Source: Natronoarchaeum mannanilyticum (GTDB lineage: Archaea; Halobacteriota; Halobacteria; Halobacteriales; Natronoarchaeaceae). From it: a stretch of DNA of 64,000 bases. Below the pieces are notes generated by a model. It ran no database searches. It saw nothing but the letters and a program-made list of their open reading frames with translations, and was not told the DNA's origin. Shown here one piece after another: positions 33,912 through 38,215 of this stretch. The position numbers were made by a program, and so were the translations under genes. Every line of letters starts with the position of its first letter. Position 1 is the stretch's first letter. The stretch is from positions 62,001 to 126,000 of the forward strand of contig NZ_BAAADV010000003.1 of assembly GCF_039522665.1 (NCBI RefSeq). The letters run 5' to 3'.

Positions 33912-34817
33912 TCAGGTCGAGGGCGTCGTCTGGATGTTCAGCGGCTTGGCGAACAGCTGGCGGAACCCCATCGTCGAGAGGAAGTACCAGACGATCCACG
34001 CCGGCATCGGGCCGAGGATCCCCTCGTCCCACTGGATCTCGCCGACGAACGGCATGATCGCCGTCTGCTCGGCCGCCGGGATCTGGCCCGTGTTGGTGAT
34101 CCAGTAGAGCCACAGGAAGATGGGGATCGTCAGCACCATGATCCACACCATCGGGCGGAACTGCTCTTTGAACATGCCGAGCTGATCGCCCATGGCCTCC
34201 ATCTGCTCCTCCTGGATGCGTTCGAGGGCCTCGTCGTCGCCCCGTTCCTTGGCGGCTTTGCGCTTTTCCTGGATGGCCTGCATCTGCTCTTGGTACTCGG
34301 ACATCTTCTCCGAGTCCATCAGGTTCGCCTGCAGCAGCATCGAGTACACCGACGTCAGCATCGCGACGACCATCACGACGGCGTAGAACGGGAGCACGGC
34401 GTCGATCGGCCCGAGCATGAGATCGATCGAGTTCCCGACCGCGTTCCGGACCGGGTTGAAGTAGTATCCGACCATCATGCCCAGCGTCGCGAGGCCGGCC
34501 AGCTTGTCCCACTGGGACCAGGAGCTGTCCTCGCTGTCGACGTCGGGGGTATCGGGCATCTCGACGGAGCCGTCGTCGCCGACGACCTGCTCGACCCCCT
34601 CGGGATCGGACAGGCGGAAGGCGTCGCCCTCCGCGCTCCGGAGGACGCCTTGCTCGATCAACCGGCCCCACTGGCCGCTCGTGACGTCGCCCTCGACGTC
34701 TTGCCACTCGACCTCGCCGCCGTTCTGATCGGCGACGCGTTTGACCGACGCCAGCGCGTCGGCGAAGTCCTCATCTTCCTCGATGAGGGACTGCACTTTC
34801 TCCGCGGTGCGCACCAT
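33912..34817 (-). CDS. DUF106 membrane insertase (EMC3/YidC-like, Ylp1)
   Basis: 301 aa. After a ~90-residue acidic, wHTH-like N-terminal region, three to four transmembrane helices follow: around 108-128, 140-165, 230-250 and 275-290. A basic/charged coiled coil sits between the first pairs (EYQEQMQAIQEKRKAAKERGDDEALERIQEEQ), and MFKEQFRPMVWIMVLTIPIFLWLYW marks the core. This is the archaeal Oxa1/YidC/EMC3 homologue proposed to insert membrane proteins with SecYEG. Its place near secY, adk and cmk agrees. Confidence 0.88.
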   Translation of the reverse strand: MVRTAEKVQSLIEEDEDFADALASVKRVADQNGGEVEWQDVEGDVTSGQWGRLIEQGVLRSAEGDAFRLSDPEGVEQVVGDDGSVEMPDTPDVDSEDSSWSQWDKLAGLATLGMMVGYYFNPVRNAVGNSIDLMLGPIDAVLPFYAVVMVVAMLTSVYSMLLQANLMDSEKMSEYQEQMQAIQEKRKAAKERGDDEALERIQEEQMEAMGDQLGMFKEQFRPMVWIMVLTIPIFLWLYWITNTGQIPAAEQTAIMPFVGEIQWDEGILGPMPAWIVWYFLSTMGFRQLFAKPLNIQTTPST

Positions 34818-34903
34818 TTGACGGTGGCTAGGCGACCCCCCGTAATCAACCTTTTACTCTCGGCGCGTCGTTTCGGGGGTCGGCGACCGGAGGAGGTGTG
34901 CGC

Positions 34904-35284
34904 TCACCCGAAAAGCGGCGTCAGCCCCTCCGGGGACTCTGTCGCCCCCTGGAACCGGACGTCGTCGCCGATCTCGACGTCGGCGTCGATGCGAGCGGTC
35001 ACGCGCGCGTCGCCGACCGTCACCAGCGCGACCGTGTACGGCGCCGCGAACCCCTCGGGCGCCACCTCGACGCGCGTCGCCGAGTAGACCGTTCCCTCTT
35101 CGGGGAGTTCGACGGGATCGAGATCGCGACTGCCGCAGCGCGCGCAGGCCGCCTTCGGCGCCGCGGTGACGTGCTCGCAGTCGGGACAGGCCTGCCCGAG
35201 CAGCCGGTCGTCTTCCAGCGCCGCCGTCCAGCCGTCGACGCCGAGCTCGCCGTCGGACAGATACTGGCCGAGATCGCTCGTCAT
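34904..35284 (-). CDS. Zn-ribbon OB-fold protein partner of thiolase (DUF35 type)
   Basis: 126 aa. A rubredoxin-like ribbon, CPDCEHVTAAPKAACARCG, precedes an OB fold (GTVYSATRVEVAPEGFAAPYTVALV). In archaea such proteins bind thiolases and hold acyl-CoA. The thiolase gene upstream overlaps this start (ATGA at 35281-35284), so the two are probably made together. Pair function may be in acetyl-CoA condensation or acyl-CoA degradation; the pathway is not visible here. Confidence 0.83.
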   Translation of the reverse strand: MTSDLGQYLSDGELGVDGWTAALEDDRLLGQACPDCEHVTAAPKAACARCGSRDLDPVELPEEGTVYSATRVEVAPEGFAAPYTVALVTVGDARVTARIDADVEIGDDVRFQGATESPEGLTPLFG

Positions 35285-36450
35285 CGCGCGGCCTCCAGCA
35301 CGGTGACGACGGTCGTCGCGGCGTCGCCGCCGAGGTTGTGCGCCAGCCCGACGTCGGCGTCTTCGACCTGGCGATCGCCGGCGTCGCCGCGGAGCTGCTC
35401 GGTCAGCTCAACGAGCTGGGCGACGCCCGTCGCGCCCAGCGGGTGGCCCTTCGCTTTGAGCCCGCCGCTGGGATTGACGGGAATCTCCCCGCCCAGCGAC
35501 GTGCGGCCCGCCGCAGCTGCCGGGCCGCCCTGACCGTCCTCTACCAGCCCCAGCGCCTCGGTCGCCAGCACTTCCGCGCCGGTGAAACAGTCGTGGAGTT
35601 CGACGACGTCCACGTCGTCGGGACCGATCCTCGCGGTCTCGTAGGCCTGACTCGCGGCGTCGCGCGCGGAACGGGTCACGGAGGGGTGAGCTTTGTCGGC
35701 TATCGGGACGACGTCGGTGGCGTGCCCGACGCCCGCGACCGGTACTAGGTCGCAGTCCAGTTCCGCCGCGACCTCGGCGCTCGCCACGACGACCGCGGCC
35801 GCGCCGTCCGAGAACGGACAGCAGTCGTGGAGGTGGAACGGATCGGCGACGATCGGCCCCTCCAGCACCTCCTCGACGGTGGTCTCCTTGCCGAAGTGCG
35901 CGCGGGGGTTCAGACTTCCGTGGTAGTGGTTCTTGACGGCGACCTCGGCGAGTTGCTCCTCGGTCGTGCCGTACTCGTGCATGTGGCGCTTGGTCAGCAG
36001 GGCGAACACGCCGGGGAAGGTGAGGCCGGTCGGGCGCTCGTACGTTCCGTGGGCGGCGCTGGCGAAGATCCGCGTCATCTCGTCGGTCTCACGGCCGGTG
36101 GCCGCCGAGCAGCGCTCGACGCCGCCGACCAGCACCGCGTCGTGGTGGCCCGCCTCCACGGCGCGGACGGCGTGCTTGAACGCGTTCGAGGAGGTCGCGC
36201 AGGCGTCCTCGAAGCGCTGGCAGGGGACGCCAGCCAGTCCGACGTGGGACGCCAGCGTCGGCGCGAGGTGGCTCTCGCCCTCGATCTGGCCGCCCATCGT
36301 GTTGCCCAAGTACAGCGCGTCGATATCCGCCGCCTCGACGCCGGCGTCGTCCATCGCGGGGAGTGCGGCGTCCGCGAACAGTTCGGGAAGGGTCGACTCG
36401 TGGACGCCGAACCGCGTCATCCCGGCGCCCGCGATCGTGGCTTCGCGCAT
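35281..36450 (-). CDS. Thiolase-family acyltransferase
   Basis: 389 aa. The acyl-accepting cysteine is Cys84 in FEDACATSSNAF. VELHDCFTGAEVLATEALGL and NPSGGLKAKGHPLGATGVAQ carry the His residues of the oxyanion site. The second catalytic Cys of classical thiolases is replaced by AHNLGGDA, as in SCP2-type thiolases. So this may be a SCP2-like or degradative thiolase rather than acetoacetyl-CoA synthase. Its stop overlaps the OB-fold gene. A TATA-like run 25-36 bases upstream suggests a leaderless message. Confidence 0.87.
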   Translation of the reverse strand: MREATIAGAGMTRFGVHESTLPELFADAALPAMDDAGVEAADIDALYLGNTMGGQIEGESHLAPTLASHVGLAGVPCQRFEDACATSSNAFKHAVRAVEAGHHDAVLVGGVERCSAATGRETDEMTRIFASAAHGTYERPTGLTFPGVFALLTKRHMHEYGTTEEQLAEVAVKNHYHGSLNPRAHFGKETTVEEVLEGPIVADPFHLHDCCPFSDGAAAVVVASAEVAAELDCDLVPVAGVGHATDVVPIADKAHPSVTRSARDAASQAYETARIGPDDVDVVELHDCFTGAEVLATEALGLVEDGQGGPAAAAGRTSLGGEIPVNPSGGLKAKGHPLGATGVAQLVELTEQLRGDAGDRQVEDADVGLAHNLGGDAATTVVTVLEAAR

Positions 36451-36474
36451 GAACGTAGACCGGGCGCTCGCGAC

Positions 36475-36486
36475 AAAGTAATTATC
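36475..36486 (-). promoter_or_regulatory. TATA-like element of thiolase/OB operon
   Basis: Read on the minus strand, GATAATTACTTT lies 25-36 bases before the thiolase ATG at 36450, so transcription would start at the start codon. The flanking DNA is GC-rich. Confidence 0.6.
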
Positions 36487-36528
36487 GTTTGTGATCGAAT
36501 CCGCACACGATCCGAACCTGCCGGGGCG

Positions 36529-37026
36529 TCACTCCGCGTCGAACGGCCACCGCCCGTCGACCGAGTGAATCGTCATCGACGACCCGTCCGAGGACGCCCG
36601 CACGCGGTCGTGGACCTGCGCCGCGTTGAACGTCTCGCGGGTCGTCGCGACGTTGTAACAACCGATCTCGTCGCCGCCGTCGGCCCACTTCGGCGTACAG
36701 ACGCCGACGACGTAGCGGACTTCCTCGTAGGATAGTCGAAGTTCCTCGTGGAGTGACTCGGAGACGACGGGCCGGCGCGGCGTGTCGAAGTAGCGATCCC
36801 ACTCACCGAAGGGGCCCTCCAGTTCCGGGGGCTTCTCGCCCGGCGGTGAGCTCAGTTCGACGTCGATTACGGTGTCACTCTTCCAGACGCCGTTCTCCCC
36901 GTACATCCCCTCGATCGTCTTCAACTGAACGTACCCTTCGGCGCCGGGCCGGAGCGCGTTACACCCGGCGAGCGCGCCGACGCCGGCGACGCTGGCGGAG
37001 CGAAGCAGCGTTCGTCTGGAGGGCAT
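36529..37026 (-). CDS. Tat lipoprotein, unknown function
   Basis: 165 aa. SRRTLLRSASVAGVGALAGC at residues 3-22 is a Tat signal with lipobox; Cys22 is the probable lipid anchor. The mature part has no motif I recognise. It has two Cys near YVVGVCTPKW and EIGCYNVA that could form a disulfide outside the cell, and ends IHSVDGRWPFDAE. Lies in the region inserted between adk and DUF106. The 78-base spacer to the thiolase gene downstream contains the thiolase promoter. Confidence 0.6.
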   Translation of the reverse strand: MPSRRTLLRSASVAGVGALAGCNALRPGAEGYVQLKTIEGMYGENGVWKSDTVIDVELSSPPGEKPPELEGPFGEWDRYFDTPRRPVVSESLHEELRLSYEEVRYVVGVCTPKWADGGDEIGCYNVATTRETFNAAQVHDRVRASSDGSSMTIHSVDGRWPFDAE

Positions 37027-37112
37027 CGTTCGCAGTTCGGACAGTTTGCAGTAAAATTCTCCGCTCGTCGGGCGTTCGGACCGACGGAGCGGTGTTTCCG
37101 ATAGGCGTCCCG

Positions 37113-37265
37113 CTACGGCGCCGAAGCGACGCCGGCGGCGCCCCGTTCAGACCGTTCGGCGATCGCGTCGCGCACGTCCTTCCAGACGAGATCGGTCGGA
37201 CGCTCGCCGTCGGTCGAGTAGATCGGAAGGTGCAGCTCGGGGAATTGATTAGTGGATTCAGCCAT
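37113..37265 (-). CDS. 50-residue protein copying the adenylate kinase C-terminus
   Basis: A 50-aa frame with ATG at 37265 and TAG at 37113-37115. Its middle reads [21 protein letters not shown], nearly the same as the Adk ending [21 protein letters not shown]. The DNA shares an exact 25-nt run (37156-37180 versus 37578-37602 in adk), 422 bases apart in the same orientation. The N-terminal 18 residues (MAESTNQFPELHLPIYST) are unrelated. It may be a remnant of partial adk duplication or a small functional protein; the intact frame is notable but short. Confidence 0.5.
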   Translation of the reverse strand: MAESTNQFPELHLPIYSTDGERPTDLVWKDVRDAIAERSERGAAGVASAP

Positions 37266-37287
37266 AATTCTAGCCGTGAATCACCGA

Positions 37288-37512
37288 ATGATCGAGAGCG
37301 CGTTTCGCAGGGTTCGACCGATCCTCGTGACTCTTGCACTACTCGCCGTCACCGCCGGAACAGCCATCGCCGCCCGCGACGGGCTGACCGCGCTGGGCTA
37401 CGAGGAGTTAACGACCGGTCTACCGGGGCGAGTGCTGTTCGCGGCGTCGTTCGTAACCGGCTTCGTCGTGCTGTTCGCGCTCCTGACGTTCTGGTACGCT
37501 CGCCGCGACTGA
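37288..37512 (+). CDS. Small two-helix membrane protein, unknown function
   Basis: 74 aa from ATG 37288 (GTG 37252 would add 12 residues). Hydrophobic segments at about 10-28 (ILVTLALLAVTAGTAIAA) and 46-68 flank a short loop (DGLTALGYEELTTGLPG). It starts 22 bases from the divergent 50-codon frame and ends 55 bases before adk, which runs towards it. No family recognised. Real coding is plausible from the two clean helices. Confidence 0.5.
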   Translation: MIESAFRRVRPILVTLALLAVTAGTAIAARDGLTALGYEELTTGLPGRVLFAASFVTGFVVLFALLTFWYARRD

Positions 37513-37567
37513 AGTCTTCACGCGCGGCGCGCGTTCGCAGGTCGAAGAGAAACGGGACCGAGGTCGA

Positions 37568-38215
37568 TCAGGCCTTCTCGGCGATCGCGTCGCGCACGTC
37601 CTCCCAGACGGCGTCGGGCGCGCGCTCGCCGTCGACGCGGACGAACTCGTCGTCGCCCTCGTACTGCTCGATGACGGGGACGGTGTTGTCCTCGTACACG
37701 TTCAGGCGCTCGCGGACGGTCTCCTCGGTGTCGTCGTCGCGCTGGATCAGTTCGCCGCCACACTCGTCGCAGACGCCCTCCTCCTCGGGCTGATCGTACT
37801 CGACGTGGTAGTTCGTGCCGCACTCGTCGCAGACGCGGCGGCCGGTGAGGCGGTCGACCAGCTCCTCCTTGGCGACGTCGAGGTGGAGCACGACGTCAAG
37901 GTCGGTGATCTCGTCGAGGTACTCCGCCTGCGCGGGGTTGCGCGGGTAGCCGTCGAGCACGTAGCCGTCGGCCTCCTGGAGGGCGGTCTTGACGATCTCG
38001 TTGACGACCTCGTCGGGGACCAGCTCGCCGGCCTCCATGTACGCGCGGGGCGTGTCGTACTCGGTGTCGAGGTGACCGATGTCCATGTCCTTGTTCGCGC
38101 GCAGCGCGTCGCCCGTCGTGACGTGCTCGACGCCGAACTCCTCGACGATCCGCGAACTCTGCGTTCCCTTGCCCGCACCCGGTGCTCCGAGTATCAGTAC
38201 GTTCGGATTGGCCAT
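37568..38215 (-). CDS. adk: Adenylate kinase
   Basis: 215 aa. ATP + AMP to 2 ADP. P-loop [10 protein letters not shown], the AMP segment [24 protein letters not shown], and a zinc-type LID with [13 protein letters not shown] ... CDECGGEL (four Cys) are all present. Long bacterial-type Adk, as in other haloarchaea. A purine-rich AGGCTGAG lies about 10 bases before the ATG, and TTTAAGCC/TTTAACCC repeats 20-35 bases upstream are a probable promoter. In other haloarchaea adk is beside secY and DUF106; here both neighbours are displaced by inserted genes. Confidence 0.95.

Follow-up and report, generated by a model that had tools for sequence, protein, structure and literature searches.

A short open frame beside a haloarchaeal adenylate kinase gene is probably a recombination scar joining the adk 3' end to lipoprotein-gene remains

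The window, by which we mean the whole analysed stretch of 64,000 nucleotides, belongs to a haloarchaeal genome of ~3.57 Mb and was compared with the genome of one genus mate (the sister species, G001) and with those of family members including Halostella pelagica (G004). The gap between the conserved genes adk and DUF106, about 30-180 bp wide in most haloarchaea, reaches 2.75 kb here (34818-37567) and ~18 kb in G001 (L033/L034), and several of the other surveyed loci (L036, L056, L058, L063, L065, L069, L080, L082, L086) have inserts of about 1-2 kb. The locus comprises the following features.

33912-34817, minus strand: DUF106 (EMC3/TMCO1-like) gene, which adjoins adk in most haloarchaea.
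34904-35284, minus strand: DUF35 OB-fold (ChsH2-like) partner gene of the thiolase; Pfam zf-ChsH2 and OB_ChsH2_C; 78% amino-acid identity at the sister-species locus, L033.
35281-36450, minus strand: thiolase gene; Pfam Thiolase_N and Thiolase_C_1; 89% amino-acid identity at L033, also lying in the sister-species interval.
36529-37026, minus strand: intact lipoprotein gene, 165 aa, with a MPSRRTLLRSASVAGVGALAGC lipobox and the C-terminus SMTIHSVDGRWPFDAE-stop; homologues ending in IHSxxGxW occur in many haloarchaea.
37113-37265, minus strand: open frame of 50 codons, read here as a probable chance frame spanning a scar and not as a gene.
37144-37212, minus strand: decaying copy of the adk 3' end including the former stop codon; absent in G001.
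37203-37212, minus strand: junction, CGACGGCGAG, read in frame as DGE by both the adk tail and the lipoprotein tail, as located by aligning the chimera with the G001 lipoprotein tail and its own adk tail.
37203-37235, minus strand: remnant of a lipoprotein C-terminus, LHLPIYSTDGE, syntenic with LHLLIHSTDGEWPFDSE-stop in G001.
37252-37512, plus strand: small membrane-protein gene, 86 aa from GTG; 90% amino-acid identity in G001; no Pfam match.
37568-38215, minus strand: adk, adenylate kinase, 215 aa, the source of the copied tail; 88% amino-acid identity to G001.

The adk product matches Pfam ADK (E 2.1e-41) and ADK_lid and is a bona fide adenylate kinase. From adk through the membrane-protein gene and beyond, the DNA of G001 aligns throughout with the window. 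Within the membrane-protein gene, 12 of the 19 substitutions between the two species fall at third positions, and the ATG at 37288 (74 aa) is its likelier start; elsewhere, only three weak relatives (33-40% identity) were found among 392 genomes of the order. The larger sister-species insert (L033 2350-19929), its frames read by eye, holds genes of acyl-CoA/lipid metabolism, an ABC transporter of the branched-chain amino-acid type and regulators. These surround the shared thiolase-DUF35 pair, which is all that the window genome keeps at this place. The family of the intact lipoprotein gene has no Pfam model and is patchy in the order, with a match in 66 of 392 genomes, many of them weak.

The ORF list of the window confirms an earlier note on this DNA in giving a minus-strand frame of exactly 50 codons at 37113-37265, intact from ATG through stop, and the frame does carry a copy of the Adk tail, in the same orientation as adk and about 300 bases from it. 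The repeat is direct and far above chance. It extends over 57 nt at 88% without gaps, or over 70 nt at 84% with one gap (E ~3e-14), includes a run in which 32 of 33 nt are identical, and corresponds to 37565-37634 at the adk end. Its local alignment score is 45, against maxima of 24 in 300 shuffles and 28 among 60 other pieces of the window. The copy is a fragment, amounting to 70 of the 648 nt of adk, and is the only second copy of the adk tail in its own genome. An assembly artefact was considered as its source and judged unlikely, given the 16% divergence of the copy from adk and its position well within a contig of 425 kb.

The earlier note regarded the rest of the frame as unrelated sequence. 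This does not hold, since the part before the adk-like stretch can be aligned with G001 DNA and has the remnant of a lipoprotein C-terminus at its end. The 5' part of the frame lies in the DNA upstream of the small membrane-protein gene on the opposite strand, and is followed by approximately 11 codons (LHLPIYSTDGE) resembling the C-terminal end of a lipoprotein in G001. In that species the undisrupted lipoprotein tail is retained at the homologous place: beyond the membrane-protein gene, on the strand equivalent to minus, lies CTGCACCTTCTGATCCACTCTACCGATGGGGAGTGGCCGTTCGACTCGGAGTGA, which reads LHLLIHSTDGEWPFDSE-stop. Over the final 44 nt this tail is 82% identical to the end of the lipoprotein gene of the window (E 1e-6), scoring 27 against maxima of 18 in 1000 shuffles and 17 among 84 other pieces. 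The remnant itself, at 11 to 17 codons, is short and gives a weak score with the family profile, and its identity as a lipoprotein tail is therefore based on this DNA similarity together with the shared pattern IHSxDGxWPFDxE, an IHSxxGxW ending being typical of the family of 36529-37026.

The window keeps the lipoprotein stub up to STDGE and then continues with the adk tail, the switch falling at CGACGGCGAG (37212-37203). Both genes read these bases as Asp-Gly-Glu, so that the lipoprotein and adk frames are in register by accident. The five codons past the junction (RPTDL) resemble neither parent well, and for this reason the crossover could extend some 15 nt past CGACGGCGAG, to about 37190. 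The intact lipoprotein gene follows directly after the scar. Within the family, the spacer at 37027-37143 has no convincing relative and gave only short G+C-rich matches at chance level.

The start ATG of the frame sits in AT-rich DNA upstream of the opposite-strand membrane-protein gene, which accounts for the same ATG being present in G001; there the reading is ATG-GCT-GGA-ACC-CAC-TAA, with the stop after five codons. At the other end, the copied adk stop persists as TGA but out of frame, as one base has been lost just before it (CGG-TC-TGA in the copy, AAG-GCC-TGA in adk), and it is this loss that lets the frame pass. The residues after AERS are the read-through of the frameshifted stop and make up the last 11 codons, ending at a chance stop.

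These observations bear directly on whether the frame is a gene, as the earlier note took it to be. It suggested, among other things, a small protein imitating the Adk tail. Put more generally, a small protein specific to this lineage might be translated from the frame and use its Adk-like tail, for example to compete with the C-terminal helix of Adk or to bind as that helix does. An intact frame with both fused pieces in register is what such a protein would show, yet we consider it most improbable: G001 has a stop early in the frame, the last 11 residues come from reading on past a frameshifted stop, the Adk-like stretch carries five residue changes in 20 aligned codons with no sign of constraint, and the product has no match to a Pfam family. 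A related proposal, to which we give hardly any weight, is that of a young chimeric gene: the recombination junction would have given rise to a new small protein, the in-register fusion of lipoprotein tail and Adk tail, whose transcription and translation would be confined to this species. A structured RNA at this position was also considered and rejected, the region being without an Rfam match at E up to 1.

Judged from a single comparison, that with the sister species G001, the frame is not conserved, being closed there and lacking the adk copy. The earlier note proposed looking for the match in close relatives, and its absence from the closest one available argues against a gene. No copy of the adk tail occurs anywhere in the adk-DUF106 interval of G001, nor does a second copy of its adk end occur within the 24.5 kb examined. 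Likewise, when other haloarchaeal adk loci were queried with the terminal 75 nt of adk and 25 aa of its product, no comparable tail copy was found in their flanks, some of which extended only 1.5 kb downstream.

The pattern of change within the copy points the same way. Relative to the resident adk it has acquired 10 substitutions in 60 aligned nt, in addition to the 1-nt deletion. By codon position the differences number 5/2/3, compared with 12/13/49 for adk between both species (Fisher p 0.04, a contrast that rests on 10 changes). The third-position bias seen in adk is thus missing from the copy, which, in so small a sample, is consistent with an absence of constraint. The frame is almost certainly a leftover patch, composed of a lipoprotein-gene tail and a decaying adk tail, and not a working gene.

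We therefore favour, at a probability of roughly 0.88, the reading of the 50-codon frame as a non-functional recombination scar, in which a 3' segment of adk was joined to the 3' remains of a lipoprotein gene. On this reading, a short DNA segment with the adk 3' end would have been joined to lipoprotein 3' remains already lying upstream of the membrane-protein gene. The simplest such event would be an unequal exchange of the tandem-duplication type between the adk tail and the lipoprotein tail, after which most of the duplicated DNA would have been lost. An exchange of this type would yield the order observed, namely lipoprotein tail, adk tail and lipoprotein gene. Given that the stub is shared with G001, this history would also need the body of the first lipoprotein gene to have been lost, and either a later loss in G001 or a later import in the lineage of the window. 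Self-comparison of the locus revealed neither a second copy of the membrane-protein gene nor a remnant of a lipoprotein body. Subsequently the copy has decayed, through substitutions and the 1-nt deletion that shifted the adk stop out of frame. What the sequences show directly is the copy with its chimeric partner, the junction, the missing base and the lack of the copy in G001; the type of exchange, its date and the absence of function are inferred.

Import from a relative of a segment holding an adk tail and a lipoprotein gene would have the same appearance. The copy and the lipoprotein gene might, accordingly, have been acquired horizontally from another species of the genus and not derive from the resident adk, a possibility we regard as real though rather unlikely. 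In its favour, the copy ends in AER(S), like the Adk of G001 (AERA) and unlike the resident Adk (AEK), and no near relative of the lipoprotein gene occupies this position in other members of the family. Where the resident adk and that of G001 differ, the copy sides with the former at four sites and with the latter at two. Against an import, 31 of the best-preserved 32 nt of the copy match the resident adk and 27 that of G001, and no lipoprotein gene beside adk, the possible donor arrangement, was present among the 9 family and 392 order genomes searched.

It remains to consider what the scar says of the block of genes around it. The earlier note had proposed a scar of the recombination that inserted genes between adk and DUF106; we retain the scar but not the insertion of genes. 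The membrane-protein (86 aa), thiolase and DUF35 genes are also found in the sister-species interval, where there is no copy of the adk tail, and as they occupy the adk-DUF106 interval of both species they are probably older than the scar. Of the whole block, the adjacent lipoprotein gene is the only one with which the scar can be linked, if with any.

A mobile element offers another route to such a repeat. An element that integrated at the adk 3' end could have rebuilt the gene, with the original end pushed aside to become the second copy and the repeat serving as its att site. A direct repeat of a gene 3' end with its stop, in the same orientation and flanking a small gene, would fit, as would the fact that the adk-DUF106 interval receives inserts in many haloarchaea. 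Against this, the DNA between the copies, that is, the membrane-protein gene, is present in the sister species without a second copy, so that the copy is not tied to the insertion of that gene. No integrase was seen among the genes of the window interval by ORFs and Pfam, the frames of the large G001 insert, read by eye, point to metabolism and transport, and the 26-nt core of the repeat was found on no viral contig, just as the other adk loci yielded no second copy. We thus reject an integrative-element att site as very improbable.

Two wider points follow. Firstly, an intact short frame that strongly matches a known protein can be a scar, its openness accidental, and such frames should be treated with caution. 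Secondly, genes have repeatedly been gained and rearranged in the stretch between adk and DUF106, two genes that are direct neighbours in the majority of haloarchaea.

Among known systems, the att repeats of integrative elements at gene 3' ends offer a likeness, both being direct repeats of a 3' end including the stop. Here, by contrast, there is neither integrase nor element, and G001 has the intervening DNA but no repeat. A second parallel is microhomology-mediated joining, in which, as here, the junction falls at a short stretch identical between two non-allelic sequences. Microhomology-driven end joining with deletions is among the findings reported for Haloferax volcanii (PMC7521656), and we infer from it that joining of this kind is plausible in haloarchaea; the present product, known from sequence alone, nonetheless resembles the junction of a duplication or an import. 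The nearest counterpart is a partial gene duplication, or gene-fragment pseudogene, at a rearrangement breakpoint: a short, decayed 3' fragment in direct orientation, fused to another remnant. From this there is no essential difference, save that the frames here happen to be in register and so give an open chimeric frame.
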